The notes below the pieces were generated by a model. It did no database searches and had not been told where the DNA came from. It saw nothing but the letters and a program-made list of their open reading frames with translations. From an uncultured Alphaproteobacteria bacterium (GTDB taxonomy: Bacteria > Pseudomonadota > Alphaproteobacteria > CAAHEQ01 > UBA3637), in assembly GCA_947627155.1 (NCBI GenBank), contig CANQUX010000015.1:1-40664 (forward strand): a stretch of DNA of 40,664 nucleotides. The letters run 5' to 3'. Shown piece by piece: positions 55 through 39,762 of the stretch (the first letter of the stretch is position 1; each line of letters starts with the position of its first letter). A program made the translations under genes and the position numbers.

Positions 55-211
55 AAACGTACGTTTTTTGCAACACTTTTTTTTGATTTTTTCAAAAAAA
101 ATTTAATGTGAGGTAAATTTAATGCAATATCAAACGGTTATAAAAAGCCTGTTTTACCAATTTTTGAGGGTATTTTTAGCCCTGAATCAGCGTTGCATTA
201 AAGGTACGTTT
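55..211 (+). repeat. Inverted-repeat element, copy 1 (candidate invertible promoter)
   Basis: This 157-bp element is bounded by AAACGTACGTTTTTTGCAAC (55-74) and GTTGCATTAAAGGTACGTTT (192-211), which are reverse complements except for a few central bases. The interior begins with a T-tract/A-tract block shared by all four copies. The right repeat contains TTGCAT, a -35 for the following pilin gene. It could be an invertible promoter cassette of a serine recombinase or a MITE-like element with outward -35 hexamers. Confidence 0.8.
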
Positions 212-221
212 AATTTATGCT
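193..221 (+). promoter_or_regulatory. Hybrid promoter of the first pilin gene
   Basis: The -35 TTGCAT (193-198) lies inside the right inverted repeat and the -10 TATGCT (216-221) lies just outside it, with 17-bp spacing. The pilin ribosome binding site follows about 10 bp downstream. The arrangement recurs at copies 2 and 3. Confidence 0.55.
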
Positions 222-246
222 ATTTGCATTGAAAGGAAGCGAAAAA

Positions 247-1743
247 ATGAAGAAAAAACAAGTTCAAAATCAAGCGCAAGAAGGCCGCAGTATGGTTGAA
301 ATGCTGGGCGTTTTGGCCATTATCGGGGTTATCTCAATAGGCGGCATTTCAGGATATAGAATGGCAATGAATCGATATCAAGCGAATCAAATAGCAAATG
401 AAATTAACCTGATGCGTACCGATGCAAAAATGAAAGTTGCCCGCGGGGTGGAAGAATTATTGCTCGGTTCGCCGTACGATGACGAAAAGCATTTGAATTT
501 TAATGCAAATTATGGCGTTAAGGTGGATTTTCCGGTTACGATATCGGATGAAGAAGGGGGAGAAGAGGGCTATTCATTTACATTATCGGGCATCCCGGCG
601 GGGGTATGTAAACCGTTAGCCACGTTATTAGACGGCATGGATGACACGGCCGTATTAGAAATTAACGGTAAAGATTATGAGACGGCAGAAACCCTTTGTG
701 ATAATGAAGAAAATGAAGTACTGGTAGCCTTTTCAACCAAAGATTTAGGTGGTATAAAAGTATGCAATCCCGAAAAGTGTCCGGGAGAATGTACCGAAAA
801 TGGCGAGTGCGAATGTCCAGAAGGAAGTCATTTAAGTGGCGATGAATGTGTAACTTGTTCGGATGAGGCGCCGTGGAATGGCAGTGAATGTGCTTGTCCG
901 GAAGCAAATGAATATTGGAACGGGAATGTATGTGTGGGTTGCAAAGGCGGTACATGGGATAATGATACAAAAACATGCACCTGTACCAGCGAAGAGCAGA
1001 CATGGAATGTGGCCACCGGTGAATGCACTTGCTCGTCAGAAAACCAACATTGGAATGGTTCCGGTTGCGTATCGTGTGAAAGAAATGAAGTATGGAATGA
1101 GGTTGATGGGCAATGTGAAGTGCCGGAATCGTACTGTCGCACGAATGCAGATTGTAATAAAGAGGGTAAGAAAGGTTATTTTTGCTACACGCGGTTGGGT
1201 AAAGATTGTTATATTGAGTTTGAAGATGGCGGCAATCGTAATTCAGGAACATGCAAACTAGTGAGTAGCTTTTTGAAGAAAAAAGCAAAGATTGGCGGCA
1301 CGACATACTATGGCACAACGAGTAATATGACGTGGTGGAGTGCGTGTCGGTTCTGTGCGGCAAGGAAAGGAGCAGATGATGGGATTTGTAAATCAGGCAC
1401 GTCGGGCACGACAGGCACAACGGAAGAACCGGATTTTATGGCAGGGTATGAAATGTTGCAATGTGCAGACAAGATAGATGTGGATAATCAAAAGACCGGT
1501 TATTGTCATGAAAGTGAAGCCGGGAACACAAGCAGAGCTGATGATAATATATCGGAGAAGGTGAAGGATTTAAGGGAAATGTATGGTTGTAGCAGAGAGG
1601 ATACGAGTTGTGATAACTATCCCTGGTTGAGAGACAGTTATTCTTCCTGCCGCGCGTACCGCGTCAGACTCGGCAATGGTAGCGTCAGCGACGTCACTCG
1701 CTACGCCAGCAACGGCCTCGACTACATCGCCTTATGTGAGTGA
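247..1743 (+). CDS. Type IV pilin-like adhesin with a DGR-type variable C-terminus
   Basis: This 498-residue protein has a prepilin-type leader of 13 residues ending in Gly, then RSMVE (Glu at +5) and a hydrophobic helix (about 19-38). I infer processing by prepilin peptidase and assembly into, or at the tip of, a surface pilus. The middle (about 175-310) is Cys-rich with EGF-like CxC repeats. The last 150 residues contain a TYYG...WWS...FC block and end in WL-D-Y...ALCE, resembling the C-type-lectin-like fold of DGR target proteins. Codons 466-498 are strongly biased to NNC/NNT, unlike the AT-rich body of the gene. The start at 247 is preferred over the in-frame ATG at 217 because AAAGGAAG precedes it and 217 lies over the -10. 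Fold and pilus role are inferred from motifs. Confidence 0.85.
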   Translation: MKKKQVQNQAQEGRSMVEMLGVLAIIGVISIGGISGYRMAMNRYQANQIANEINLMRTDAKMKVARGVEELLLGSPYDDEKHLNFNANYGVKVDFPVTISDEEGGEEGYSFTLSGIPAGVCKPLATLLDGMDDTAVLEINGKDYETAETLCDNEENEVLVAFSTKDLGGIKVCNPEKCPGECTENGECECPEGSHLSGDECVTCSDEAPWNGSECACPEANEYWNGNVCVGCKGGTWDNDTKTCTCTSEEQTWNVATGECTCSSENQHWNGSGCVSCERNEVWNEVDGQCEVPESYCRTNADCNKEGKKGYFCYTRLGKDCYIEFEDGGNRNSGTCKLVSSFLKKKAKIGGTTYYGTTSNMTWWSACRFCAARKGADDGICKSGTSGTTGTTEEPDFMAGYEMLQCADKIDVDNQKTGYCHESEAGNTSRADDNISEKVKDLREMYGCSREDTSCDNYPWLRDSYSSCRAYRVRLGNGSVSDVTRYASNGLDYIALCE

Positions 1744-2474: not shown

Positions 2475-2630
2475 AAACGTACGATTTTTGCAACACTTTT
2501 TTTGCATTTTTGTAAAAAAAATTTAATTTAAGCGGAAATAATTGATTTTTCGAGTGTTTTTTAAGGGTGATTTTTTGCCTTTTGAAGGCAATTTTTACCC
2601 CCGAAACCGCGTTGCATTAAAGGTACGTTT
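2475..2630 (+). repeat. Inverted-repeat element, copy 2
   Basis: This 156-bp element is bounded by AAACGTACGATTTTTGCAAC (2475-2494) and GTTGCATTAAAGGTACGTTT (2611-2630). It has the same orientation and internal T/A-tract as the other copies. Its left flank, read outward, is AATTGAGGAAAGAGAA, identical to the right flank of copy 4 at 38470-38485. Confidence 0.8.
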
Positions 2631-2640
2631 ATTTTATGCT
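2612..2640 (+). promoter_or_regulatory. Hybrid promoter of the vWA pilin gene
   Basis: TTGCAT (2612-2617, inside the inverted repeat), 17-bp spacer, TATGCT (2635-2640, outside). The ATG at 2668 follows a GAAAGGGAG ribosome binding site. Confidence 0.55.
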
Positions 2641-2667
2641 ATTCGTAGAGTGAAAGGGAGTCGGAAA

Positions 2668-4272
2668 ATGACAAGACAATTCAAAAAACAAGTTCAAAAT
2701 CAATCGCAAAGCGGCCGTTCAATGATTGAAATGCTCGGCGTGCTGGCAATTATTGCTATTTTATCCATCGGGGGGATTGTGGGGTATAAATTAGCCATGA
2801 ATTATTATCAAGCCGACCAAATTGCTAATGAAATCAATCTCATGCGTAACGATTTAAAGGTAAAATATGCTTTGGGGAATGAAGAATTGTTGCTCGGGGA
2901 TCCTTATGATGATACACCCGAAAATGAAAATTACAGCGGGCATTTATCAACACAATATGACCGTTATCCTGTTGATTATGATTGCATTCGCAAAGACAAA
3001 GCAGAATTTTATAACTGCCGCGAAGCAGATGCTTATTATATTAAAGTCGGGAATGTTTCGAAAGGCGTTTGTAAACCGCTTACAACGCTTGTCAGCGCCA
3101 TGGACGGTTTAATGTATATGGAAATCAATAAAAAAGTTTATAAAGAAGATGATTTATGTGATGAAGCCAATGAAATTTACATTCAGTTTGACGCAGAGGA
3201 TGTGAACGGCAATTACGATTCGAATCGTCCAGAAGGATGGTGTGGCAAAGATGGTGATTGTGAAGAGCCGCAAGTTTGCGATAAGGAAAACAATACATGT
3301 GTAGAATGTACGGAAAATACACATTGTGCCTCAAATATATGTCGGAAAGATCATACTTGCGGTGAATGCACAAAAGATTCGGATTGTTCGAATCCGCGTC
3401 CGATTTGCGATACGGAATCGGCAACATGTATGAGATGTGCTGTTGATGATGAATGTCAAAAAGCCAATGTAAATAAACCTGTTTGCGACATGGGCACCGG
3501 TGCTTGTTGTGATGATTCGCTCATGACATGGAACGGCAGTGAATGCGTTTGCCCCGAAGATTATGCCAAATCGGAAACCAGCTCCGGTAAAGCCGTTTGT
3601 TTGCCCTATTGCGAGCAGGAAGTCGGCATTATTTTGTTAATTGATCATAGCGGTTCTATTGCCGGTATGATTAACGATTCTGATTTAGACAAAGTTCAAA
3701 AATATCACAAAGCAGTGGAACAAGTTGAAACAGCCATTGCACAACTTAATATTCCCCAAGAAGTTTATTCAGCGGTTTATTTATCGGGATGTTGGTATAA
3801 TAAAAATCACTACACTTGTAATAAAGTATGCAACGGATTAAGTTCCGATTCGAATGAGGGATATAAAATCAATGAACATTTGAAATATGGATTGCATAGT
3901 CCGGCACAAATTGCGGCAGCCATGAAAATTGACAGAGTTAAAGATGATATTTTGAGCGAGAAATGCAGTACTGTGGGATATGCCATCAAAGACAAAATTA
4001 TTCCTTTATGTAAAACAGGGGAAGAAAAATTTATTGTTGTTATTTATTGGGATAATTTTGACGAGATTGTTGATCCGCAATTAGAGGCGTTGGTTCAAAA
4101 ATGTCCTCAAACAAAAATTTATAATGTTGCCATAGACGGAAAATCTTATACGGGTTCAGGTGCTGCCGGTAACTTTAATTTAAATAATATCAACGATTTA
4201 AATAATGATATTAACAATGCATTGAATGAAGCCATTCAACAAGAAGCTTGTGTGCAACGCCCGGGCGGATGA
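2668..4272 (+). CDS. Type IV pilin-like protein fused to a von Willebrand A domain
   Basis: This 534-residue protein has leader MTRQFKKQVQNQSQSG, then RSMIE (Glu +5) and a hydrophobic helix, the prepilin signature. Residues 17 to about 190 are nearly identical to the pilin at 14153. Cys-rich CxxCxxxxxC repeats follow (about 190-310). From about residue 318 a von Willebrand A domain begins, with the MIDAS motif DHSGS (Asp326, Ser328, Ser330), a metal-dependent ligand-binding fold used by tip adhesins. The domain runs to the end and finishes in an Asn/Asp-rich helix. The likely role is a pilus-tip adhesin; no sortase motif or second membrane segment is seen. The start at 2668 is chosen because GAAAGGGAG precedes it and it matches the paralogue; the in-frame ATG at 2542 lies inside the inverted-repeat element. 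Confidence 0.85.
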   Translation: MTRQFKKQVQNQSQSGRSMIEMLGVLAIIAILSIGGIVGYKLAMNYYQADQIANEINLMRNDLKVKYALGNEELLLGDPYDDTPENENYSGHLSTQYDRYPVDYDCIRKDKAEFYNCREADAYYIKVGNVSKGVCKPLTTLVSAMDGLMYMEINKKVYKEDDLCDEANEIYIQFDAEDVNGNYDSNRPEGWCGKDGDCEEPQVCDKENNTCVECTENTHCASNICRKDHTCGECTKDSDCSNPRPICDTESATCMRCAVDDECQKANVNKPVCDMGTGACCDDSLMTWNGSECVCPEDYAKSETSSGKAVCLPYCEQEVGIILLIDHSGSIAGMINDSDLDKVQKYHKAVEQVETAIAQLNIPQEVYSAVYLSGCWYNKNHYTCNKVCNGLSSDSNEGYKINEHLKYGLHSPAQIAAAMKIDRVKDDILSEKCSTVGYAIKDKIIPLCKTGEEKFIVVIYWDNFDEIVDPQLEALVQKCPQTKIYNVAIDGKSYTGSGAAGNFNLNNINDLNNDINNALNEAIQQEACVQRPGG

Positions 4273-13858: not shown

Positions 13859-13920
13859 CCCTCTATCGGCGGGTGTGACAGACGGCTTTATGTCGTCTGT
13901 CGCTGTGGATCGATAGGGGG
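13859..13920 (+). repeat. Compound palindrome, family C
   Basis: The outer stem CCCTCTATCGGC pairs with the GATCGATAGGGGG side and encloses an inner hairpin GACAGACG/CGTCTGTC. It is the same unit as three copies at 38.8-39.5 kb. It follows the autotransporter stop and could act as its transcription end. Confidence 0.75.
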
Positions 13921-13958: not shown

Positions 13959-14114
13959 AAACGTACGTTTTTTGCAACACTTTTTTTTGATTTTTTCAAA
14001 AAAAATTTAATTTGGCCGGAATTCATTGATTTTTCGACTGTTTTTGAGGGGTGAATTTTTATTTTTTGAGAGCAATTTTAACCCCGGAATCCGCGTTGCA
14101 TTAAAGGTACGTTT
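13959..14114 (+). repeat. Inverted-repeat element, copy 3
   Basis: This 156-bp element is bounded by AAACGTACGTTTTTTGCAAC (13959-13978) and GTTGCATTAAAGGTACGTTT (14095-14114). The symmetry extends outward on both sides by AATT. The left repeat contains a perfect palindrome AAACGTACGTTT. It has the same orientation as the other three copies. Confidence 0.8.
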
Positions 14115-14125
14115 AATTGTATACT
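14096..14125 (+). promoter_or_regulatory. Hybrid promoter of the third pilin gene
   Basis: TTGCAT (14096-14101) in the right inverted repeat, 18-bp spacer, TATACT (14120-14125) outside the element, 27 bp before the ATG. Confidence 0.55.
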
Positions 14126-14152
14126 ATTCGTAGAGTGAAAGGGAGTCGGAAA

Positions 14153-15685
14153 ATGACCATGCAATCAAAAAAACAATTTAAAAATCAATCTCAAAGCGGG
14201 CGCTCAATGGTTGAAATGCTGGGCGTGTTGGCTATTATTGCTATTCTGTCCATCGGCGGGATTGTGGGCTATAAATTAGCTATGAACTATTATCAGGCCG
14301 ATCAGATTGCGAATGAAATTAACTTAATGCGCAACGATTTAAAGGTTAAATACGCTTTGGGAAATGAAGAATTGTTGTTGGGGGATCCTTATGATGATAC
14401 ACCCGAAAATGAAAATTACAGCGGGCATTTATCAACACAATATGATCGTTATCCCGTTGATTATGATTGCATCCGTAAAGACAAAGCAGAATTTTATAAC
14501 TGCCGTGAAGCGGATGCTTATTATATTAAAGTGGGGAATGTTTCGAAAGGGGTTTGTAAACCGTTAACAACACTTGTTAATGCCATGGACGGTTTAATGT
14601 ATATGGAAATTAACAAAGAAGTTTATAAAGAAAACGATTTATGTTCAAGTGATGAAGCCAATGAATTTTATATTCAGTTTGATGCAGAAGAAGTGAACGG
14701 AAACTATGATTCGAATCGTCCCGAAGGTTGGTGTGGTGATGATGAAGATTGTGAAGAGCCGCAAGTTTGCGATAAAGAGAGCAATATGTGTGTGGAGTGC
14801 ACGGAAAATGCGGATTGTGACTCAAATATATGTCGGAAAAATCATACTTGCGGCGAATGCGTCTCCGATTCGGATTGTACAAATACCGAAACACCCAAAT
14901 GCAACCAAAATACAAACACTTGCGAATCGTGTCCGCCGGAAACGCCCATATGGTATAACAATAAATGTGTGGAGTGCATAACATATAACGATTGCACGAA
15001 TGATATTGATAAACCGAACTGTAACGCGGGAACAAACACATGTGAACCGTGTCCGCAAAATTCGTTTTGGGACGGGGAAAAATGTCAAGAGGGGTGTCGA
15101 GAAAACAGTCACTGTGCCGAAGATGAATATTGTTATAAATTGGATGGATTTTCTTGTACGGATGAATGGAAAAATGAAGAAGATTTCAGCGGTTCCTGTC
15201 GAAAAGTGGAGGGTGATTTAATTTCCGGAACAGTGGATGGGCAAACTTATTACGGATCAAACAATGCAATGAATTGGTGGAGTGTGAAACGGTTTTGTGA
15301 AGCAGCCGCTCAATTGGGACACGGAAACGGACAAATGGCCGTTTGGGGAAAGCCGGACTTTAAATGTCATTCGTTTTCCGAGCTGACAACATCAAGCGGT
15401 CCATATTGTCATAAAAACGACACTGATGTTCATATTGGAGATTTTAATGATCTTTCAACAACGGTGGAAGAATTAAGGAAAATGTTTGGTGTGACCCACA
15501 CGGGAGAATGGGATACGGAAACGATTGATATTTGGTTATTAAATCAACCATCAACCGATTGTCTTATGTTTGAGATAGAAATTTCCACGCCTCAAAACTC
15601 CAAAGGACAAAAACCAGGAGTTATTCTGCATGCCACCGAAGCTACACATCTTCAACGAGCAAATCATGCCTTATGTCAACCTTAA
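14153..15685 (+). CDS. Type IV pilin-like adhesin, non-variable lectin-like C-terminus
   Basis: This 510-residue paralogue of the protein at 2668 has a nearly identical first 190 residues (leader MTMQSKKQFKNQSQSG, RSMVE, hydrophobic helix), then Cys-rich repeats (about 190-330). The C-terminal domain of about 170 residues (GQTYYGS...MNWWSVKRFC ... NHALCQP) is homologous to that of the variable adhesins. Its final codons are ordinary AT-rich ones, and the shared GCCTTATGT tail diverges right after, without the 43-bp conserved element. It therefore looks like a family member outside, or escaped from, DGR targeting. GAAAGGGAG lies before the ATG at 14153; the in-frame 14117 is upstream of the -10 and was rejected. 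An adhesive pilus-tip role is inferred. Confidence 0.85.
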   Translation: MTMQSKKQFKNQSQSGRSMVEMLGVLAIIAILSIGGIVGYKLAMNYYQADQIANEINLMRNDLKVKYALGNEELLLGDPYDDTPENENYSGHLSTQYDRYPVDYDCIRKDKAEFYNCREADAYYIKVGNVSKGVCKPLTTLVNAMDGLMYMEINKEVYKENDLCSSDEANEFYIQFDAEEVNGNYDSNRPEGWCGDDEDCEEPQVCDKESNMCVECTENADCDSNICRKNHTCGECVSDSDCTNTETPKCNQNTNTCESCPPETPIWYNNKCVECITYNDCTNDIDKPNCNAGTNTCEPCPQNSFWDGEKCQEGCRENSHCAEDEYCYKLDGFSCTDEWKNEEDFSGSCRKVEGDLISGTVDGQTYYGSNNAMNWWSVKRFCEAAAQLGHGNGQMAVWGKPDFKCHSFSELTTSSGPYCHKNDTDVHIGDFNDLSTTVEELRKMFGVTHTGEWDTETIDIWLLNQPSTDCLMFEIEISTPQNSKGQKPGVILHATEATHLQRANHALCQP

Positions 15686-30703: not shown

Positions 30704-30760
30704 GACGGGATAAAATTTTATTTTTTTTAGGAATGGTGACTATATCCGTTTTCTTTCTTC

Positions 30761-30815
30761 TTTTCGGCGGGAAGTGCCGGCTCGTGGAACGTGAGCCGGC
30801 GCGGTGTGCCGAAAA
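30761..30815 (+). repeat. Compound palindrome, family A
   Basis: Outer stem TTTTCGGC/GCCGAAAA, inner hairpin GCCGGCTC...GAGCCGGC. It is the same inner module as 39635-39689. Confidence 0.75.
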
Positions 30816-30846
30816 TAAGAAAAATAAATAATGCTGTTTTTTCTGC

Positions 30847-30881: not shown

Positions 30882-31090
30882 AAGGCAAGTGATGTGTGCC
30901 CCGAGGTGTGACAACCTCTCTTACTGTATCCTTGAAAAAGGATAAATATTACTCTCTTTTGACTGTGTGTCAAAGGAAAAGTAGGTCAAGTGGCCGGAAG
31001 GTAGTAAAATAAGCCTTTTGGTCAATATACTGCACTATATCAGTAAGATAGTTGTCAACTTCCGGTCGCCTCTCATCAAGGCGATTTTTT
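30882..31090 (+). ncRNA. Structured RNA or leader of unknown family (about 209 nt)
   Basis: It runs from a good promoter to an intrinsic terminator (TCGCCT 31066-31071 / AGGCGA 31079-31084, six T). Internal hairpins are GAGGT/ACCTC (near 30903-30918), ATCCTT/AAGGAT (30929-30943), CTTTTGAC/GTCAAAGG (near 30956-30977) and TACTG/CAGTA (near 31027-31045). CCGGAAG (30994-31000) pairs at distance with CTTCCGG (31059-31065), directly next to the terminator stem. The terminator ends 16 nt before the pilin ATG, so this is either a stand-alone small RNA or a leader with an attenuator. It does not match the 6S, SRP, tmRNA or c-di-GMP riboswitch motifs I know. Its 3' end recurs at position 1. Confidence 0.6.
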
Positions 31091-31106
31091 CATAAAGGAA
31101 GCGAAA

Positions 31107-32234
31107 ATGACAAACAAAAGAAAGCAGTTAAAACAAATTCAAAATCAAGCACAAGACGGGCGTTCAATGGTTGAAATGCTTGGCGTTTTAGCTATTATCG
31201 GCGTTATTTCACTTGGTGGCATTGCGGGATATAGATTAGCAATGAATCATTATCAGGCGAATCAAGTTGCCCACGAATTGAATATGATGCGTACCGATGC
31301 GCAGGTAAAAATTGCCCAAGGGACGGAAAAATTAACGCTGGGCAGCCCTTATGATGATCATAAAATCAATTTTAACGACTATAAAACGAACTTTGATTGT
31401 GCTTTGGCCAATGAAGAAGAAGTTATACTCAATGATGTTTCCTGTTATGCCGCGAACGCTTATTATATAGAATTGCAAGAGATTCCCGAAGATGTGTGTC
31501 AACCGCTGGCACGCCTGATTAACGGCATGGATAATTTAATTGATTTTTATGTAAACGAATCTGATGCGGAAGGAGTAGGAAAAGACACTTGCGATGAAGG
31601 AAACAACACATTAACGGCAATTTTCGGCGCCGATTCGGATTCGAACGCCATTAAATGCGATGATGCCGACGAATGCCCCGAAAACTTGCCTGTTTGTCTT
31701 AACCATATGTGTGTGGAGTGCGAAACGAAAGCTCAATGTTCGGCAAGGGGAAAAGATCCCTATTGTGATGAAGAAACACATCGTTGCGATTGTCCTGACG
31801 GGGGAACATATCAAAATGAATATAACGCTTGCGTGATTGATGTTGAAACAAAATTTTTCATTACACCGAATCCGTCATGCACTAAAATAACACCCCGACC
31901 GTTTGGCCCTTATAAACATTCTTATGAAATTTGGGGACATGGAACAATTGATGATTTTCTTCTTTTATATTTAAATAAAGAGGGTCCGGAAGATACATCT
32001 GATGTAACAAAATGTAACAGTGGTTATGATGCCATAAGACACGGTTGCGGTGACTCTAAAAGAGATTTCTGTCCTGATTTTAAATTGTGGGATTTAAAAG
32101 CGGGTGATTATGGAAATTTAGTTGTGGGTGATCCTGTTACATGGGGTAGTTGGGGTATTGGTTGGGTTGATGAAACAGAGGGCAAACCGCACCGAAATGA
32201 TGGCAAGATTTGGTTGATTTTAAAAGATGAATGA
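31107..32234 (+). CDS. Type IV pilin-like protein with a distinct C-terminal domain
   Basis: This 375-residue protein has an 18-residue leader ending QDG, then RSMVE (Glu +5) and a hydrophobic helix to about 43. The region to about 180 is homologous to the other pilins (NHYQANQVAHELNMMRTDAQVKIAQG). A short Cys-rich part (about 185-240) follows, then a C-terminal domain (about 245-375) unrelated to the lectin-like or vWA modules: IWGHGTIDDFLLLYLNKEG, GDPVTWGSWGIGWVDE, ending IWLILKDE. I do not recognise it; it is probably another tip module. The ribosome binding site is AAAGGAAG. Unlike the other pilins, it lacks the inverted-repeat element and sits directly behind the structured RNA's terminator. 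Confidence 0.85.
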   Translation: MTNKRKQLKQIQNQAQDGRSMVEMLGVLAIIGVISLGGIAGYRLAMNHYQANQVAHELNMMRTDAQVKIAQGTEKLTLGSPYDDHKINFNDYKTNFDCALANEEEVILNDVSCYAANAYYIELQEIPEDVCQPLARLINGMDNLIDFYVNESDAEGVGKDTCDEGNNTLTAIFGADSDSNAIKCDDADECPENLPVCLNHMCVECETKAQCSARGKDPYCDEETHRCDCPDGGTYQNEYNACVIDVETKFFITPNPSCTKITPRPFGPYKHSYEIWGHGTIDDFLLLYLNKEGPEDTSDVTKCNSGYDAIRHGCGDSKRDFCPDFKLWDLKAGDYGNLVVGDPVTWGSWGIGWVDETEGKPHRNDGKIWLILKDE

Positions 32235-32298: not shown

Positions 32299-32330
32299 TT
32301 GCGCTGCTCCGCACCCGCCGAGAATGAGAG
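32299..32330 (-). repeat. Truncated compound palindrome, family B
   Basis: GCGCTGCTCCGC...GCCGAGAATGAG is the right part of the family B unit seen complete at 39347-39407. Confidence 0.5.
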
Positions 32331-32364
32331 ATAAAAACACAATTTCCGTTTCCAGCCTTTCATA

Positions 32365-32419
32365 TTTTCGGCACATCGCGCCGGCGCATATTCCACGCGC
32401 CGACACTTTCCGCCGAAAA
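32365..32419 (-). repeat. Compound palindrome, family A, reverse orientation
   Basis: TTTTCGGC/GCCGAAAA outer stem with an inner GCGCCGGCGC...GCGCGCCG module, after the fourth pilin gene. Confidence 0.7.
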
Positions 32420-32501
32420 TAAGAGAAAATCGAATATATCCCCTCTAAAAAATAAATTATCATCAGTCGGAAATTAAGAAAAAGTGCCGAATTTTACCCT
32501 T

Positions 32502-32614: not shown

Positions 32615-33769
32615 TTAATTAAGCGGTAAAGCATAATTAACCGATTGTACCGGCTGTGTTCTTTTTCTTTGAGGCGCTGACGGAATTGCTTTCGGAGCGG
32701 GTGTGTAATCCGGAAAAATATCCGTGAGCAACTTTTCCGATGCTTCTTTAATGGCTTGACTGAACAGTAATTCTTCAACTGCCGAACATGATGAAAAAGC
32801 ACTTTCTTTACGGAATGTTTTTTCAACCGAATCGGCAGAAATAATTTCCATTGTTGCCGTTTCCAACAGTCTGTATGAAATTTTTACTTTGGCGGAAGCC
32901 GAATAATTTGTTTCTCCCGTCAATGCAATATAATCTCTTGTTTGAGAGGCTGAAAAATGATCGATATTTCCAACCAAAATATAATCAGCCGGAACAATAT
33001 TTCGAAGGCTTGTTTTGTTTTCTGCCAATGTCATATTATCGGTAATTAAAGCAATTTCATCGGCATAATTATCAAAATTATTTCTATCAACCATATTAAA
33101 TTTGTGACTGGGTGTTAAGTGCTCAATAAAGGCATTGGAAATAAGAGTGTTTATTTCATTCAAATTTAGGGCTTGCCCCAAGCAGGTAAATTTTTTTGTT
33201 GTTTTAAACGGCAATACGGCCAAAGAATAATCGGCTTTTTTTTTCAATCTTTTAGATTTGTAATCATGCGAATCATAAACATCTTCTTTAATAATAAGCG
33301 CATTGATTTTTACCTGATGTTTGCCGTTTAATTGGGTATGTTCAACAACTTCATAGGAAGAAACAACACCTTGATATTGTGCGGGAATATATTTCGAGTT
33401 ATCTTGAACGCCTGTGGTTATCTTTTCCGTTTCGCTTGCATTGCTTTCGGCCTGTATTAAAATATCTCCTTGAATATTTCCGTTTCTTTTCACGCCGTCA
33501 TCATTTACGGAAACATCAGCAAAAGAACTTCCTTGCACGAAAGCGTTTGCCGAATTGTTTTTTTCACGGGCCACATAGGCAGAGGCATCAATTTTATGCA
33601 AGCCGTTTCGAGAAACGGAAACAGCACTTGTTTGTCTGACGGCATTTTCAACCGCATTTAAAACAGCCCAGTCATAATCTTCTCCTTCACCGAAAGCCGA
33701 GACAACAATTTCTTTGGCAGTGGCCGAGAATGATATTGACAGGATTAAAGCGAATAATAATTTTTTCAT
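32615..33769 (-). CDS. CsgG-like exported protein
   Basis: This 384-residue protein has a Sec signal peptide (about 1-18, ending ATA) without a lipobox. From about 180 the pattern LAVLPFKTTKKF...LISNAFIEHLTPSHKFNMVDRNNF...VPADYILVGNIDHF resembles the CsgG/LpoB-type periplasmic domain. The N-terminal 170 residues (EIVVSAFGEGEDYDWAVLNAVENAVRQ) are typical of proteins found beside such genes. A Pro-rich C-terminus (about 355-375) may contact other envelope parts. It is last in a four-gene envelope operon, 15 bp after lpoB. A pore function is not shown by sequence. Confidence 0.75.
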   Translation of the reverse strand: MKKLLFALILSISFSATAKEIVVSAFGEGEDYDWAVLNAVENAVRQTSAVSVSRNGLHKIDASAYVAREKNNSANAFVQGSSFADVSVNDDGVKRNGNIQGDILIQAESNASETEKITTGVQDNSKYIPAQYQGVVSSYEVVEHTQLNGKHQVKINALIIKEDVYDSHDYKSKRLKKKADYSLAVLPFKTTKKFTCLGQALNLNEINTLISNAFIEHLTPSHKFNMVDRNNFDNYADEIALITDNMTLAENKTSLRNIVPADYILVGNIDHFSASQTRDYIALTGETNYSASAKVKISYRLLETATMEIISADSVEKTFRKESAFSSCSAVEELLFSQAIKEASEKLLTDIFPDYTPAPKAIPSAPQRKRTQPVQSVNYALPLN

Positions 33770-33784
33770 AATGTTTTCCTTTCA

Positions 33785-34378
33785 CTACCACGTCATGGTA
33801 TTTTTATCGGCTATTTTTTTAATTTTCTTTTCACCCTCCCAAATGGTTAACCCGTTGGATAATTCGGTAATGGATAAAGAAAAACGATATTCAATTCTTT
33901 TCTTACCTGAAACGGTAAATTCTCTTTGTGTGATTTTTCCGGACAAGCTTAATTCCGGTGCCGCCAAAGAAGCTTTTTTTCTGACATTGGCCTGATTAAA
34001 TTCTCCGGATTTTCTTAATTGGGAACTTGCCATAACCATATTATCTTCTTGAAAAGCCGTTACGCGAACTTTTCCGCTTTTCATAAGCGCAATTCGAATG
34101 GATTTGGATAATTCATCGACATCAATGCGTTGCATGGTATCATTTTCAATACGGGAAATAATTAAAATATAAGGTTGCCCGTTGGGTTTGCTTAATGTGC
34201 CCATATCCAACATATCTTGAATCATGGCATTGGAGGCTTCTTCAAAATCACGTCCCTCTAATGCCGCTGCACGTTCGGTTGAATCATTTTCTTCATCAAT
34301 CAGTTGCGTTTCGGTTGCACAGCCGTTTAAAGTAAAAGCCAAAGCCAAGCAACAAAATAATTTCACATAATTTTTCAT
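33785..34378 (-). CDS. lpoB: LpoB-like penicillin-binding-protein activator lipoprotein
   Basis: This 197-residue protein has a lipoprotein signal ending LNGC (Cys about 19). The core matches LpoB: SNAMIQDMLDMG, PYILIISRIENDTMQRIDVDELSKSIRIALMKSGKVRV and the ELSLSGKI...YRFSLSITELSNGLTIWEGEKKIKK ending. In Enterobacteria LpoB is an outer-membrane lipoprotein that reaches through peptidoglycan to activate PBP1b. LpoB is best known in Gammaproteobacteria, so its presence beside YcfL and COG3014 here suggests transfer of the whole operon. The ribosome binding site is AAAGGATC. Confidence 0.85.
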   Translation of the reverse strand: MKNYVKLFCCLALAFTLNGCATETQLIDEENDSTERAAALEGRDFEEASNAMIQDMLDMGTLSKPNGQPYILIISRIENDTMQRIDVDELSKSIRIALMKSGKVRVTAFQEDNMVMASSQLRKSGEFNQANVRKKASLAAPELSLSGKITQREFTVSGKKRIEYRFSLSITELSNGLTIWEGEKKIKKIADKNTMTW

Positions 34379-34399
34379 ATTAAAGATCCTTTCTGATGT

Positions 34400-34777
34400 T
34401 TATTCAATAATTCCGTTGCCGATATCATCGGTAATGTAAACTTTATAGGCAACGGCTCGTTTTGAAGGTGCTGCCGCATTCCAGAAAAATTCGACATTCT
34501 TTCGCAGATTAACCTTTTTCCAACGAGATAATCCGGTGGAAATTTTCATACCGTTCGAATCAAACCATTCAAATTTATAATAAACAGATTGATTAGAGGC
34601 CGCGGTTCCGGAAATTTGAGCTAAAATCTGACCGTCTCTTTCGCGAATGCGGCTTTGTGTGTTAACAGCCGAAAGATTGACCCCCGAATCAACGGAAATT
34701 TTTTCATGATCATATTCTAACGGTGTTGCACAAGCACCTAAAAATAAAAACACACTGAATAAAATTATTTTTTTCAT
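34400..34777 (-). CDS. ycfL: YcfL-like lipoprotein
   Basis: This 125-residue protein has a lipobox LFLGAC (Cys 15). The body has the YcfL (DUF1425) pattern: ISGTAASNQSVYYKFEWFDSNGMKISTGLSRWKKVNLRKN followed by AYKVYITDD. Its function is unknown, but the gene is usually next to lpoB. Spacing is 21 bp to lpoB and 12 bp from the upstream gene, so it is part of one transcript. Confidence 0.8.
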   Translation of the reverse strand: MKKIILFSVFLFLGACATPLEYDHEKISVDSGVNLSAVNTQSRIRERDGQILAQISGTAASNQSVYYKFEWFDSNGMKISTGLSRWKKVNLRKNVEFFWNAAAPSKRAVAYKVYITDDIGNGIIE

Positions 34778-34789
34778 ATTTTTTATCCT

Positions 34790-36190
34790 TTATAAATCAA
34801 TAACTTGAATAACCGGCGCGGATTCTTTTGTCGGCACCCGAACATATATAACGGAATGATTGTTTTCCGGAACTTTAACCTGATAGTTTCGTCCGCCGAT
34901 GGTTAGAGTTAAATTTGAACCGGCTTTATTGATTTTAGCCAATTGTACGTTTTTCGGCAAACTGTACCAGCTGCGCGTATCGGCTCCGGCAGTTGCAACG
35001 GAATAGGTTGCCATGGCAATACCGCCCAAATCGCCCAGTTTGTTTTGCATGACAGCTTGCGCAACGGTTTGCAAAGTTAATTTTGTTACGGCTTTCGTAA
35101 CGATAATCGGTAATTTTTTCTTAAATTCGGCAATAAAAATATTATCAATATCTGCCAACAATTCTGTTTTCACCTGTTGTGTGCCGTTTGATACGGAAAT
35201 ATTTTGATAAGCTGCTTCTCTTTCTTGCGGATAAGGCAAAGCCAACGAAGCTGTTTTAACATTGTTTGTTGCAATAAAGACAGGTAAATCTATCCGAAAT
35301 TCTTTAAAATTGGCAACCAATCCGTTTTCAAAAATAACCCATGCGGTCGGATTTAAATTGCTTTGTTTTTGAGCGGCTAAATTATTGGCCTGAGCTAAAT
35401 CGTGCTTAACAAAACGATTGTTTTGAACCATACCCGAAACACGCTTTAAATAATTTGAAGCCGTTTCATAATCACTGCCGGAATGCCCGTTTGTCATTAA
35501 ATATAATCCGCTCATATAGGTTATGTAAGGATTAACAAAGTTAGCATATCCGTGCCATCTTTCAAACTCTTTATAATTATTTAAGACATTTAAAATATTT
35601 TTATTATTAACAGCTTGTGCCTCTTTTTGTATTTGCATCATATCTTTAACGGTTTCTTCTTTTTGCTTTTGAATTTCTTTATTGAATTCTTCCACGGCCT
35701 TTTGCTGGACGGCATAGGCTCTGTTGACTTGAATTTTTGCTTCATCTTTATTGTTTTGCGCCAAGGCATTCAGAAGCGTATATGAATGTAAATAAATTCC
35801 GTCCATAATCATCGGGTTATAATCTGTAAGACTTGCATTTGCCGCTACTTCAACGGCACTTCTTGCTAAACCGAGGGATTCGAGATCTTCTTGAATTTGT
35901 TCCGAGGCATTTTCAAAAAATTTATCGGATATTTCCTGTTTTTGAGCTAAAAATAAAGCCGTTCCGCCGTTTAATTGCTCATCAATATTAAAATCATCAG
36001 GCTGTATATCATCGGCAGACATATCACACATACCGCTCTTTTCTAAAACTTTATCGGCGGCAGCACAATAATCGGCTTGATTATAGGCTTTTTGAAATTC
36101 GGAAAATTTCATTTTATTGGCTGTACCGCAGCCGGTTATTGTTGCGGATAACATAATTGTCAGAAAAATATTTAAAGAACTTTCACGCAT
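34790..36190 (-). CDS. COG3014-family lipoprotein
   Basis: This 466-residue protein has a lipoprotein signal ending TITGC (Cys about 21). The N-terminal part is helical and TPR-like (AYNQADYCAAADKVLEKSGM; GGTALFLAQKQ), with a coiled coil around 165-200 (EEFNKEIQKQKEETVKDMMQIQKEAQ). The C-terminal domain contains LPVFIATNN, TRSWYSLPKNVQLAKI and YVRVPTKE. This matches the family that sits beside ycfL and lpoB in some Gammaproteobacteria. The role is unknown, presumably in the envelope. GGAGG precedes the ATG. It is first in the operon; a TATAAT-like -10 is on the minus strand at 36242-36247. Confidence 0.75.
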   Translation of the reverse strand: MRESSLNIFLTIMLSATITGCGTANKMKFSEFQKAYNQADYCAAADKVLEKSGMCDMSADDIQPDDFNIDEQLNGGTALFLAQKQEISDKFFENASEQIQEDLESLGLARSAVEVAANASLTDYNPMIMDGIYLHSYTLLNALAQNNKDEAKIQVNRAYAVQQKAVEEFNKEIQKQKEETVKDMMQIQKEAQAVNNKNILNVLNNYKEFERWHGYANFVNPYITYMSGLYLMTNGHSGSDYETASNYLKRVSGMVQNNRFVKHDLAQANNLAAQKQSNLNPTAWVIFENGLVANFKEFRIDLPVFIATNNVKTASLALPYPQEREAAYQNISVSNGTQQVKTELLADIDNIFIAEFKKKLPIIVTKAVTKLTLQTVAQAVMQNKLGDLGGIAMATYSVATAGADTRSWYSLPKNVQLAKINKAGSNLTLTIGGRNYQVKVPENNHSVIYVRVPTKESAPVIQVIDL

Positions 36191-36466
36191 AAATCCTCCA
36201 TAATTTTATTTTAACAGTTCTAAAAAACGAGTAACAAATTAATTATACATAAACCAACGTTTTTGTTCAGGATTCAAGAATAATACCCATTATCAATGCA
36301 TCGGAATAAAAAACTCTTGCTTCTTTATTATTTTCAATGTGTTATCTTTTTTGCATAAAAATACTTTTTTATGCATATTTCAATTGACAAAAACGTTCTA
36401 TTAAGTTGAGCGGGTAAAAAATAAATTAACCAATGAAAACAAATAAAAAATTGAAAGGAATAAATT
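36191..36466. promoter_or_regulatory. Divergent promoter region
   Basis: This 276-bp gap lies between the lipoprotein operon (minus) and the recombinase (plus). The complement of 36242-36247 reads TATAAT. TTGACA is present at 36385-36390 facing the recombinase, but without a good -10. No copy of the pilin inverted repeat is found here. Confidence 0.4.
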
Positions 36467-37069
36467 ATGTGTATTATCGGATATATTCGTGTGAGTTCAA
36501 TTAAACAAACCGTTGATCATCAACGCTATGAAATTCAAGAATTTGCCAAAAAAAATCATATTCAAATAGATACTTGGATTGAAGAAACCATTTCTTCCCG
36601 TCAGGCATTAAAACGGCGTAAATTAGGCCGCTTACTCGATTGTTTAAATGCGGGAGATATTTTAATTTCCTGCGAAATTTCCCGACTGGGACGCTCTTTG
36701 TTGGAAATTATGCATATTTTGGAAACGTGTTTGAATAAAGACTGCCAAGTATGGACAATTAAAGAACATTATCGGTTGGGCAACGATATTCAATCAAAAG
36801 TAATGGCATTTGCGTTTGGCTTGGCGGCAGAAATTGAAAGAAATTTAATTTCCGAACGCACAAAATCATCGTTAGCGAACATTAAAGCCGGCGGAAAAAA
36901 ATTGGGACGGCCTTTTTCGGCACAATCGCGAAAATTAAAATTGGCGAAAAATACGCAACGTGTGGGTGAGCTTTTAAAAAACGGTTTTTCCAAATCACAA
37001 ATAGCCCGTATGATGGGTGTTCAACGAATTACTTTGGTTCGTTTTTTAATGCGTTCGGGGCTTCAATAA
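36467..37069 (+). CDS. Serine DNA invertase resembling Mpi
   Basis: This 200-residue member of the resolvase/invertase family has the catalytic Ser in GYIRVS (Ser10), the SRLGRS motif and AFAFGLAAEIERNLISERTKSSL (long helix), then GRP and a C-terminal helix-turn-helix (NGFSKSQIARMMGVQRITLVRFL). The stretch QTVDHQRYEI...WIEETIS...VWTIKEHYRLGNDIQSKVMAFAFGL is, from memory, strikingly like Bacteroides Mpi, which inverts many promoters. Here four copies of a 156-bp inverted-repeat promoter element occur in the same window, natural substrates. AAAGGA precedes the ATG. It stands alone with its own terminator. Substrate assignment is inference. Confidence 0.85.
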   Translation: MCIIGYIRVSSIKQTVDHQRYEIQEFAKKNHIQIDTWIEETISSRQALKRRKLGRLLDCLNAGDILISCEISRLGRSLLEIMHILETCLNKDCQVWTIKEHYRLGNDIQSKVMAFAFGLAAEIERNLISERTKSSLANIKAGGKKLGRPFSAQSRKLKLAKNTQRVGELLKNGFSKSQIARMMGVQRITLVRFLMRSGLQ

Positions 37070-37134: not shown

Positions 37135-38265
37135 TTATTTCTTGTTTAAAATGCTTTTAAAATTGTGTTTGAAAGCGTTGAGAGTATGTTGTTGAATGAA
37201 ATCATGCCAATAAGGTTCAAAATTTTGTTTTTGAATCATTCCCGCATCTGTTTTTTCCAATATTTGCGCTAATTCTACCGTATTTTGCGGTTCAAACAAA
37301 ACGCCTCTTTTGCCGTTGGCTAAAATTTCCCGCGGGCCGGAAACACAATCGGACGAAACGGGAATAGTGCCGCAAATCATGGCTTCAAGCAGCACCATTC
37401 CGTACCCCTCCGAGAAAGAAGATAAAATTAAAGCCTTTGATTGGCGCATATAAGGAAAAGGGTTGGCCGTATCGCCTTTCAGAATAATCTGTTTTTCAAG
37501 ATGAAGTTCTTGAATGAAGTTTTTGTAATAAGTAACCTGAGTGCCCGTTCCGCAAAGGTAAAGTTTTGTGGCAGAGTGGGTTTTTTCATAAAACAGTTTA
37601 TAAGCGTTAATGAGTGTTGTTATATCTTTATCGCCGTCAATACGTCCGACATAAACAAAAAAAGGCGTTTTATTCGGGGGAATATCAGCTAAACTTTGTC
37701 GGGCAATTTTTTCGACATTCAGCGGATTTAGAATGGTTTCTATGGAAATATTCGGCAATTTTTCTTTTACGTTTTTCGTAAATGTATGGCTGATACCGAT
37801 GATTTTATCATATTGTTTAATCTTATTATTTAAATCTTTTATTTCCCACCAAAAATCGGAACCGCCTTGTATCCAACACCATTTATGAAGAGAAGAGGGC
37901 AATTCTTCAGCATATTTGTAAAAGGCAAAATTCAAAAAATCAATCCATAACAGGGTGTTTTCGTCACACAGTTTTTTCATAAAGTTCAAAGACTTTTTAA
38001 AAGGTTTTTTTCTGATAAAAATTTTCCAATATATTTTTTTTAAAGTTTTTTTCGGTTTAGGTAAAGAAGGAAATAATTTCTCTAAACAGGTAACGGGAAC
38101 ATTCAGGTTTTTTAATTGATCAAATAATTCGCATTGTTTAGGAACAGTTCGAATAATAACATGAATATCATAATCATTTTTAAGCGCTTCAATTGCATTA
38201 ACCAAAACCCGTTCGGCACCGCCTGTCACAAATTGCGGCATATTAAAAATAATTTTCTTTTTCAT
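37135..38265 (-). CDS. GT4-family glycosyltransferase
   Basis: At 376 residues this is the normal length. It has an N-terminal GGAERVLVNAIEAL (GT-B fold acceptor domain), FVYVGRIDGDKDITTLINAYKLF, LYLCGTGTQ, and the donor-sugar motif SSFSEGYGMVLLEAMICGTIPVSSD (E-x7-E type). Such enzymes build lipopolysaccharide, capsule or glycoprotein sugars at the inner membrane. It has no glycan cluster neighbours in the window. The start at 38265 (MKKKIIF) is preferred over 38313 because a promoter formed with the left repeat of inverted-repeat copy 4 would start transcripts near 38298. Phase-variable surface sugar is a natural inference. Confidence 0.85.
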   Translation of the reverse strand: MKKKIIFNMPQFVTGGAERVLVNAIEALKNDYDIHVIIRTVPKQCELFDQLKNLNVPVTCLEKLFPSLPKPKKTLKKIYWKIFIRKKPFKKSLNFMKKLCDENTLLWIDFLNFAFYKYAEELPSSLHKWCWIQGGSDFWWEIKDLNNKIKQYDKIIGISHTFTKNVKEKLPNISIETILNPLNVEKIARQSLADIPPNKTPFFVYVGRIDGDKDITTLINAYKLFYEKTHSATKLYLCGTGTQVTYYKNFIQELHLEKQIILKGDTANPFPYMRQSKALILSSFSEGYGMVLLEAMICGTIPVSSDCVSGPREILANGKRGVLFEPQNTVELAQILEKTDAGMIQKQNFEPYWHDFIQQHTLNAFKHNFKSILNKK

Positions 38266-38304
38266 TTTACAATCTGCATTTTTAAATGATATTATATATA
38301 CTCT

Positions 38305-38332
38305 GTTATACATAAACGTACGATTTTTGCAA
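38305..38332 (-). promoter_or_regulatory. Hybrid promoter of the glycosyltransferase gene
   Basis: On the minus strand, TTGCAA (38327-38332, inside the left repeat), 16-bp spacer, TATAAC (38305-38310, outside). The long A-tract of the element lies directly upstream, like an UP element. Confidence 0.5.
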
Positions 38333-38469
38333 CACTTTTTTTTGATTTTTTCAAAAAAAATTTTTTTGAGGTGTAATTTTTTGATTTCAAAAGGTTTTTT
38401 GCTTGTTTGCCTTGCTTTTTATAAGTGCTTGAAAAGTGTCGAAAAAATCGTTGCATTAAAGGTACGTTT
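38314..38469 (+). repeat. Inverted-repeat element, copy 4
   Basis: This 156-bp element is bounded by AAACGTACGATTTTTGCAAC (38314-38333) and GTTGCATTAAAGGTACGTTT (38450-38469). The right flank AATTGAGGAAAGAGAA (38470-38485) is the left flank of copy 2 in reverse. The interior is the most diverged of the four after its first 35 bp. Confidence 0.8.
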
Positions 38470-38516: not shown

Positions 38517-38572
38517 CTCTTTTATTTTCAGCGGAAAATGCCGGCTTGTAGAATATGTGTCGGCGCGGTGAC
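38517..38572 (+). repeat. Degenerate compound palindrome, family A
   Basis: TTTTCAGCGGAAAATGCCGGCTTG...GTCGGCGCGGTG keeps the family A layout with many mismatches. Confidence 0.5.
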
Positions 38573-38681
38573 AAGTAAAGGCTGAATTTATGTTTTCCTG
38601 TTTACAGGTGATGACTTCTCTCTCTTATTTTCGGGGTGATGATAATTTATTTTGAGGAAAGATTATCGCTTTGTTTCTTAA

Positions 38682-38735
38682 TTTTCGGTGGGAAGTGCTA
38701 TCCCGCAATTGTGGGATAGCGCGGTGTGCCGAAAA
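38682..38735 (+). repeat. Compound palindrome, family A
   Basis: Outer stem TTTTCGGT/GCCGAAAA, inner hairpin CTATCCCGC/GTGGGATAG around AATT. Confidence 0.75.
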
Positions 38736-38799
38736 TAAGAAAGGCAGAAAAAATGAATTCGGCATTATTGCTTAAAATTGTGTGGCACTCTCCTTTTTT

Positions 38800-38860
38800 C
38801 CCTATCGGCGGATGGGACAGACGGCGTTCAGTCGTCTGTCGCTATGGGCCGATAGGAGGG
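38800..38860 (+). repeat. Compound palindrome, family C
   Basis: Outer stem CCCTATCGGC/GCCGATAGGAGG, inner hairpin GACAGACGGC/GTCGTCTGTC. Confidence 0.75.
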
Positions 38861-38946
38861 GATAGACGGCAGACTGTCATTTTGGTAAAAGTGGTAAAGA
38901 TAAAGGATATTTTTCTCTCTTTGTTTGTAATTGGCTCACTTTCTTC

Positions 38947-39000
38947 TTTTCGGCGGGAAGGGCTATCCCGCAATTGTGGGATAGCGTGGTTTGTCGAAAA
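38947..39000 (+). repeat. Compound palindrome, family A
   Basis: Outer stem TTTTCGGC/GTCGAAAA, inner CTATCCCGC/GTGGGATAG, with small changes in the shoulders (AGGGC, GTGGTTTG). Confidence 0.75.
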
Positions 39001-39047
39001 TAAGAGGCGATTCGGTGAAAAACAATAAGTTTGCTGTAAACTTTTTT

Positions 39048-39110
39048 CCCTCTATCGGCGGATGGGACAGACGGCTTTATGTCGTCTGTCGCTATGGGCC
39101 GATAGGGGGA
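39048..39110 (+). repeat. Compound palindrome, family C
   Basis: Outer stem CCCTCTATCGGC/GCCGATAGGGGG, inner GACAGACGGC/GTCGTCTGTC; nearly identical to 39487-39546. Confidence 0.8.
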
Positions 39111-39235
39111 ATGACGGCAGGGAAGATAAAGATTGCTAGTATTCCTTCTCCTCTCAATTTGCAGACGATGACTCTTTTTTCTTATTTTTTGCAATATTTA
39201 TTTTTTTATGGCGATTGTATTTGCTTTCTTTCTTA

Positions 39236-39289
39236 TTTTCGGCGGGAAGTGCTATCCCGCTTTTGTGGGATAGCGCGGTGTGCCGAAAA
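39236..39289 (+). repeat. Compound palindrome, family A
   Basis: Outer stem TTTTCGGC/GCCGAAAA, inner CTATCCCGC/GTGGGATAG with loop TTTT in place of AATT. Confidence 0.75.
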
Positions 39290-39346
39290 TTAAGAAAAGA
39301 AGAAAGCAAAAAAAAGAGAGAGGAATGCTTGATTGTGTCTCTGCCT

Positions 39347-39407
39347 CTCATTCTCGGCGGATGTGGAGCGGCACAATTGCGCCGCTCCGCTATGTGCCGA
39401 GAATGAG
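39347..39407 (+). repeat. Compound palindrome, family B
   Basis: Perfect 12-bp outer stem CTCATTCTCGGC/GCCGAGAATGAG and inner hairpin GGAGCGGC/GCCGCTCC. Confidence 0.8.
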
Positions 39408-39486
39408 AAAGAAAAGGCAGCGAATCGAAAGCAGAGTTATTTATTTGATATAGCAGTCTATTATCTGTATGTAGCACTCTCTTTTT

Positions 39487-39546
39487 CCCTCTATCGGCGG
39501 GTGGGACAGACGGCTTTATGTCGTCTGTCGCTATGGGCCGATAGGG
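39487..39546 (+). repeat. Compound palindrome, family C
   Basis: Outer stem CCCTCTATCGGC/GCCGATAGGGG, inner GACAGACGGC/GTCGTCTGTC. Confidence 0.8.
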
Positions 39547-39634
39547 GAAAAGGGACGGCAGGTTGTTATTTTGGCAGAAGTGGTAAAGACAAACGATATT
39601 TTTCTTCTCTATTTGCAGTGAGCACTCTCTTTTC

Positions 39635-39689
39635 TTTTCGGCGGGAAGTGCCGGCTCGTGGAACGTGAGCCGGTGCGGTGGGCTGAAAA
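39635..39689 (+). repeat. Compound palindrome, family A
   Basis: Outer stem TTTTCGGC/GGCTGAAAA, inner GCCGGCTC/GAGCCGG, the module also seen at 30761. Confidence 0.7.
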
Positions 39690-39700
39690 GAGAGGAGAGG

Positions 39701-39734
39701 TGCCCCGCTGAATGGGAGTCTTAAAGGCGGGGCA
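39701..39734 (-). repeat. GC-rich stem-loop, reverse copy of 1782-1815
   Basis: TGCCCCGC/GCGGGGCA with nearly the same 18-nt loop as downstream of VR1, in the opposite orientation. With the neighbouring palindrome it extends the inverted homology between the two window ends. Confidence 0.6.
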
Positions 39735-39744
39735 TCAGGGAGCG

Positions 39745-39762
39745 GTCGGCGCAAGCGCCGAC
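39745..39762. repeat. Short perfect hairpin
   Basis: GTCGGCGC and GCGCCGAC with a 2-nt loop AA; very GC-rich for this window. Confidence 0.6.

Follow-up and report, generated by a model that had tools for sequence, protein, structure and literature searches.

A serine DNA invertase of an uncultured alphaproteobacterium and the 138-bp segment adjoining its gene are likely to form a portable phase switch, of which four more segment copies lie in trans, and the approximately 90 elements with a TA core found in the same genome would constitute a second regulon. The window (the whole stretch of DNA analysed, 40,664 nucleotides) is a complete contig of a genome of 1.56 Mb, which comprises 32 contigs and is 95.8% complete. 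This genome is designated here as G000, and C5, C9, C13, C23 and C24 are contigs of it.

The invertase and its adjoining inverton

The open reading frame in question encodes a serine invertase of the Mpi type. It carries a Pfam Resolvase domain (PF00239, 114.7 bits), and its full-length match to the NCBIfam model NF009949, "master DNA invertase Mpi family", reaches 271.4 bits over residues 3-197 (0.6 bits under the curated cut-off of 272), well ahead of all other families, the runner-up scoring 40.7 bits. A second search gave 271.8 bits for the same model, and 272.2 bits with neighbours in frame. The match of the C-terminal end to HTH_7 is borderline (22.1 bits, below the cut-off of 23.8). Residues R8, S10, R73 and R76 of the Resolvase domain, which we take to be the catalytic Ser and Arg residues of serine invertases and resolvases, are invariant in an alignment of 11 sequences; likewise, the motifs ETIS and VWTIKEHYRLGNDIQSKVMAFAFGL, on which the original prediction had based a resemblance to Bacteroides Mpi, fall in conserved stretches of the family alignment. 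The named relatives of the enzyme are mostly metagenome-assembled genomes (MAGs) labelled Alphaproteobacteria from animal guts. The Mpi-like invertase and the alphaproteobacterial host that had been proposed are borne out, the named relatives pointing to a gut bacterium, and the family search does not group the enzyme with plasmid resolvases, the Mpi family being far ahead.

Directly upstream of the invertase gene there is a second inverted-repeat element, overlooked in the original prediction, whose repeat (AACGTTTTTGT) lies at -211 and -80. This AA-core inverton (Table 1) sits between the invertase gene and a divergent lipoprotein/LpoB/CsgG operon, and its 138-bp segment is the best-supported substrate of the window invertase. 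We infer the pairing of enzyme and site, the position of the crossover and the strength of the promoter in each state from the sequence. According to the proposed mechanism, two short inverted sites, with half-sites around AAACC-AA-CGTTT, would be recombined by the enzyme at their central AA, which would flip the segment between them; the -35 hexamer would thereby move, whereas the TATAAT -10 hexamer, at a distance of 16 bp, would keep its place in the flank. Once the TTGACA end is beside the -10, a TTGACA-16-TATAAT promoter would drive the divergent operon, and each inversion would complete or break that promoter. In the assembly, TGAACA stands 16 bp upstream of TATAAT, and TTGACA would take that place after inversion; the assembled state is read as OFF because the weak TGAACA end faces the -10. 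These hexamers were read by eye, and their consensus strength in this host may differ.

Table 1. Position of the features of the window (strand and basis are given where available).
Feature	Position	Strand	Basis or remark
Mpi-type serine DNA invertase, 200 aa, ATG start	36467..37069	+	ORF list, Pfam, NCBIfam, tree
AA-core inverton	36251..36404	.	11-bp exact inverted repeat; sites AAACC-AA-CGTTTTTGT (left) and ACAAAAACG-TT-CTATTAA (right)
Invertible segment, 138 bp	~36258-36395	.	putative crossover position
TTGACA, strong -35-like segment end, now on the invertase side	36384..36389	+	sequence; putative function
TGAACA, weak -35-like segment end, now on the lipoprotein-operon side	36264..36269	-	sequence; putative function
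TATAAT, stationary -10-like hexamer in the flank of the segment, 16 bp away from the -35 position	36242..36247	-	sequence; putative function
Presumed local target operon (divergent)	32615..36190	-	ORF list, family search
466-aa protein, lipoprotein-like start, no Pfam hit	34790-36190	-	presumed target operon
DUF1425 protein	34400-34777	-	presumed target operon
LpoB-like protein	33785-34378	-	presumed target operon
CsgG-like protein	32615-33769	-	presumed target operon
TA-core element 1, before pilin-like gene 217-1743	55..211	.	
TA-core element 2, before pilin-like gene ending 4272	2475..2630	.	
TA-core element 3, before pilin-like gene ending 15685	13959..14114	.	
TA-core element 4, no pilin-like gene on R side; A-tract end faces glycosyltransferase gene	38314..38469	.	
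Glycosyltransferase gene	37135-38313	-	
Pilin-like protein, GRSMVEMLGVLAIIG N-terminus, C-terminal domain maybe C-type-lectin-like	217..1743	+	N_methyl weak; folds
Pilin-like protein, likely start at downstream ATG 2668	2542..4272	+	
Pilin-like protein, likely start at ATG 14153	14117..15685	+	

The AA-core elements, their number and the -10-like sites fixed in their flanks emerge from comparison among copies, as does the inversion of the segment. The short AA arm pattern, with 2 mismatches allowed, is not commoner on its own than its control (36+26 vs 39+49), and it is the pairing of arms at 128-131 bp that stands out. The composite pattern occurs five times in the window genome (the window copy, C9, C23, C24a and C24b; reversed-pattern control, 0), and at 11 places in 5 of the 96 genomes searched, with a control of 0 in all of them. 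The four copies outside the window precede genes for proteins starting with MKYSKTALMYLSHEY, one of which was examined and contains an autotransporter beta-domain (146 bits). Between C23 and C24b, the 143-bp segment is identical at 141/143 positions as reverse complement and at 66/143 in the forward direction, and the flanks match in the same orientation (137/150 and 100/100). The AA-core segment has therefore inverted, since it is reverse-complemented between conserved flanks; the C24a segment is likewise reversed (131/143). This comparison proves past inversion, ongoing switching being a separate matter. Two of the four trans copies are in the ON orientation and two in the OFF orientation, and the -10 of the autotransporter copies is weak (TTTACT).

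The window enzyme probably flips these four distant copies in trans. The global surface switch that had been envisaged consequently stands in part: with five matching elements in one genome, one local and four distant, action of the enzyme on several distant surface genes is likely, the pairing being drawn from sequence, whereas the TA-core pilin set probably does not belong to it (see below). Two other genomes, G012 and G016, have AA-core elements that lack an adjoining invertase gene and also precede MKYSKT autotransporter-like genes. In G016, the element is present, yet no Mpi match above E 1.8e-6 was found in that genome, which speaks against the pairing.

TA-core elements and pilin-like genes

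Several inverted-repeat elements of the same type had been claimed for the window, and four were indeed found, each 156-157 bp long (Table 1). Their arms are AAACGTACGWTTTTTGCAAC (L) and, as reverse complement, AAACGTACCTTTAATGCAAC (R), spaced ~144 bp apart. Chance does not account for the TA-core elements: when at most 3 mismatches are allowed, the L-arm pattern has 99+89 matches in the whole genome against 0+1 for the reversed-pattern control. In the loci sampled from the window genome, 88 distinct places resemble the L arm, and 81 of these are matched by an R arm 134-144 bp away; by a second criterion, the loci contain 87 complete elements. A pilin-like gene lies on the R side only in 72 of these 87, on the A-tract side only in 1 and on both sides in 1, and 13 have neither assigned. 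Altogether, 91 pilin-like N-termini were counted in the window genome.

The assignment as type IV pilin-like relies on (i) a recurring but sub-threshold Pfam N_methyl match in 5/5 proteins; and (ii) the predicted fold of a short pilin-like protein of a relative (a long N-terminal helix plus a sheet, mean pLDDT 85), whose best PDB match by Foldseek is the type IVb pilus of ETEC (E 0.026, probability 0.97). As a lead only, the C-terminal domain of the pilin-like protein encoded at 217-1743 may be lectin-like: its weak Foldseek matches are the C-terminal domain of Legionella Lcl (probability 0.60) and Bd2740 (0.63), with several C-type-lectin folds lower.

With regard to promoter architecture, a TANNNT hexamer is found at a distance of 16-18 bp from TTGCAW in 68/73 TA-core elements of G000 and 22/25 of G006 on the gene side, and in 0/73 and 0/25 on the far side (shuffled flanks, 12%); in other genomes, this spacing occurs on the gene side in 1/5 (G007) and 0/1 (G009). 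Because the spacing is confined to the gene side, the TA-core element is read as carrying the -35-like hexamer and an A-tract inside and the -10-like hexamer outside, with the core AAACG-TA-CGTTT between them. TA-core elements and AA-core segments thus appear to share a split-promoter plan. The R end in G000 also has TTGCAT at the -35 position, so the OFF state may be leaky. Scored by the side of the -10, the A-tract end points away in 71 elements of G000 and towards in 3 (12 unscored, 1 at an edge); two of these three (L063 and L069) are not beside pilin-like genes and were scored by the short hexamer alone. The corresponding away and towards counts are 23 and 2 (of 31) in G006, 1 and 1 (of 8) in G007 and 2 and 4 (of 7) in G009. 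The sister species G001 and G008 have equivalent elements of 142-143 bp with core GA and TTGCAA at one end only. Among the listed elements (30 loci for 142 arms), the flagged pilin-like gene is opposite the TTGCAA end in 7/7 cases in G001 and 8/11 in G008, and at the TTGCAA end in 3/11 in G008.

This near-uniform orientation (72/73 pilin-adjacent and 71/74 scored elements) and an almost constant length would also be expected if the TA-core elements were non-invertible and had been copied together with pilin-like genes, either as a static promoter module or as a repeat of the MITE type. We regard such a static module as unlikely, given that (i) the opposite orientation is found at L062, in two L238 elements and in 4/6 scored elements of G009; (ii) the sister GA-core type stands both ways round beside pilin-like genes in G008 (3/11); and (iii) the palindromic cores match sites that adjoin invertases. 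A flank-BLAST comparison of orthologous TA-core loci between species was set aside owing to too many paralogous matches, and only single clear cases were kept.

Within 93 genomes, TA-core elements occur in number in G000, G006, G007 and G009 only (2 hits in G027 and 1 in G066), and the tree places near relatives of the Mpi paralogue on C5 (L100:2637-3371) in exactly these four genomes, with a more distant one in G001. The C5 paralogue, which has no inverted repeat upstream, is present in 4/4 TA-element genomes, syntenic over ~4.5-5 kb and beside dnaA. Since its distribution matches that of the elements, it is the best candidate for the TA regulon, and the approximately 90 TA-core elements are probably served by it and not by the window enzyme. 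G006 has two Mpi homologues only, of the C5 and C13 types. G008 counts against C5: it has GA-core elements, yet the C5 homologue there is frameshifted, with fragments besides, and no clear intact orthologue was found. The C13 paralogue (L079:1983-2567) was rejected as master of the TA set: at up to 1 mismatch, the genome holds only its own local pair of sites (G000:C13:27451-27605, core TT), a purely local inverton.

The original prediction assigned the nearby pilin-gene elements to the window invertase itself. Such an assignment, extended from the four window elements to the genome-wide set, draws on membership of the same enzyme family, on a common core plan (AAACS-NN-CGTTT) and on the similar inner half-sites of AA and TA elements (CGTTTTTG vs CGTTTTTTGC); moreover, in related systems one enzyme can accept several cores. 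We nevertheless consider this assignment improbable and rejected it: the elements differ from the AA-core element in core and half-sites and are plentiful in G006 and G007 (both MAGs, with 76-77% completeness), in which the search for an orthologue of the window invertase found none; the window invertase has an AA-core set of its own, and the distribution of C5 fits better. An AU test did not firmly set the C5 enzymes apart from the window enzymes (p 0.097). Given the similar inner half-sites, cross-action between the AA and TA systems may occur.

With C5 as the probable enzyme of the TA set, a broader picture can be tentatively drawn, to which we give somewhat less credence than to its rejection: one small genome might hold at least two invertase regulons told apart by core dinucleotide and half-sites (AA for autotransporters and the lipoprotein operon; TA for approximately 90 pilin-like adhesins), all of them moving only the -35 across a crossover in the spacer, with nearly all of the pilin set OFF and one or few pilins displayed, and with sister species shifted to GA. 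If true, the small genome of this uncultured gut alphaproteobacterium would hold a set of invertible surface promoters that ranks among the larger ones for any single genome, and the serine-invertase family would diversify its site code within one lineage, several switches coexisting without crossing.

Some further observations concern the surroundings of these elements. The pilin-like gene at 31107-32234 has no element, and its upstream sequence (31061-31110) resembles the flanks of element 1 (1-54 and 211-246), with the look of an empty site. The A-tract end of element 4 provides a promoter-like TTGCAA-16-TATAAC at 38298-38326, directed into the glycosyltransferase gene. The ATG listed for this gene overlaps that sequence, and translation probably starts further downstream. 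GC-rich, hairpin-like repeats occur near pilin-like genes (38540-39760, 13860-13920, 30760-30820 and 32300-32430). Other palindromic cores upstream of pilin-like genes are AAAGG-AA-CCTTT (L276, G012), AAAGG-AT-CCTTT (L280, G014) and AAACG-TC-CCTTT (L271, G004).

Cassettes beside related invertases

A strict inverted-repeat search near the invertases of the window enzyme's clade found few repeats, and a looser search together with alignments revealed cassettes. Of the 31 distinct clade loci that offer at least 200 bp of upstream sequence, 16 have a left site (AAACCAACG-NT) combined with a right site (CGTTCTAWTAAA) upstream of the invertase (5/6200 in shuffles), and the other 15 lack this pair. 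Going by where the TTGA hexamer lies, 4 of the 16 cassettes are ON (L051, L154, L159 and L165), 11 are OFF and 1 is ambiguous (L147). Upstream segments are inverted between related invertases of named MAGs, namely L153 vs L154 (77/85), L151 vs L154 (128/130) and L147 vs L157 (61/78).

The divergent genes to the left of the cassettes vary: by reading of the sequences and not by family search, they are lipoprotein-like, autotransporter-like, pilin-like and DNA methyltransferase-like genes and genes with ankyrin-like repeats. That the AA-core segment serves chiefly to control the invertase gene itself, and not the divergent operon, is in our opinion quite unlikely. The right end of the segment does lie ~60-70 bp before the start codon, TTGACA faces the invertase in the assembly and the right flank is conserved; against this, no convincing -10 could be seen by eye at 16-18 bp on the invertase side, and four of the five copies stand without an invertase gene and still have, to their left, a divergent gene of autotransporter-like type.

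Two side observations can be added here. L153 and L167 have DNA methyltransferase-like genes to the left of the cassette, which suggests possible phase-variable methylation; the AA cassette may thereby also switch methylation states in relatives. In addition, the first 61 bases of L130:1-255 (G005:C66) are the exact reverse complement of the pre-invertase flank, a possible trace of both orientations in the assembly.

Known switches and origin of the enzyme

In Bacteroides switches of the Mpi type, the whole promoter lies inside the invertible segment. This is not the case here, where the -10-like hexamer is outside (at the AA-core inverton of the window and in 68/73 TA-core elements, far side 0/73) and the -35 inside. 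The system shares with B. fragilis Mpi the NCBIfam family, several short inverted-repeat promoter elements and surface genes as neighbours; it differs in its alphaproteobacterial host, its own clade, the presence of surface proteins instead of capsule loci and the coexistence, within one genome, of several paralogous enzymes that differ in their site cores. Invertases of the Hin/Gin type have in common with the window enzyme the serine recombinase fold and the N-terminal catalytic domain, but the best solved relative scores 45.6 bits, and the promoter here is split at the crossover site.

Mpi of B. fragilis inverts 13 regions, seven of which are capsule promoters (PMC4747536). The same paper describes Tsr19/BF2766 of B. 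fragilis as acting on a local and a distant promoter (PMC4747536), which resembles the present arrangement of one enzyme with local plus distant promoters; nevertheless, Tsr19/BF2766 is a tyrosine recombinase and the window enzyme a serine invertase. A split promoter with its crossover in the -35/-10 spacer would escape screens for complete promoters inside segments, such as the one that filtered for promoters inside invertible regions (PMC8748976). Searches of an open-licence library brought up neither a split -35/-10 inverton nor a system of this kind from gut Alphaproteobacteria, which is weak evidence of absence; a paper on Enterousia genomes contains none of the terms invert, recombin and phase variation (PMC12306168).

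Recent acquisition of the enzyme from gut Bacteroidetes, as the original prediction had suggested, is very improbable and, for the sampled Bacteroidota sequences, not supported: in spite of a common family model and 54-60% identity with Bacteroidota members, constraining the enzyme with 9 Bacteroidota rows (a group named after the tree was seen, B. fragilis Mpi not being among the rows and the Bacteroidales row L178 having been lost at ORF extraction) costs 168 log units and is rejected (p-AU 1.2e-8). The window enzyme belongs to a 38-row clade without Bacteroidota (support 98), whose named rows are all alphaproteobacterial or MAGs unplaced as "bacterium" or "proteobacterium".
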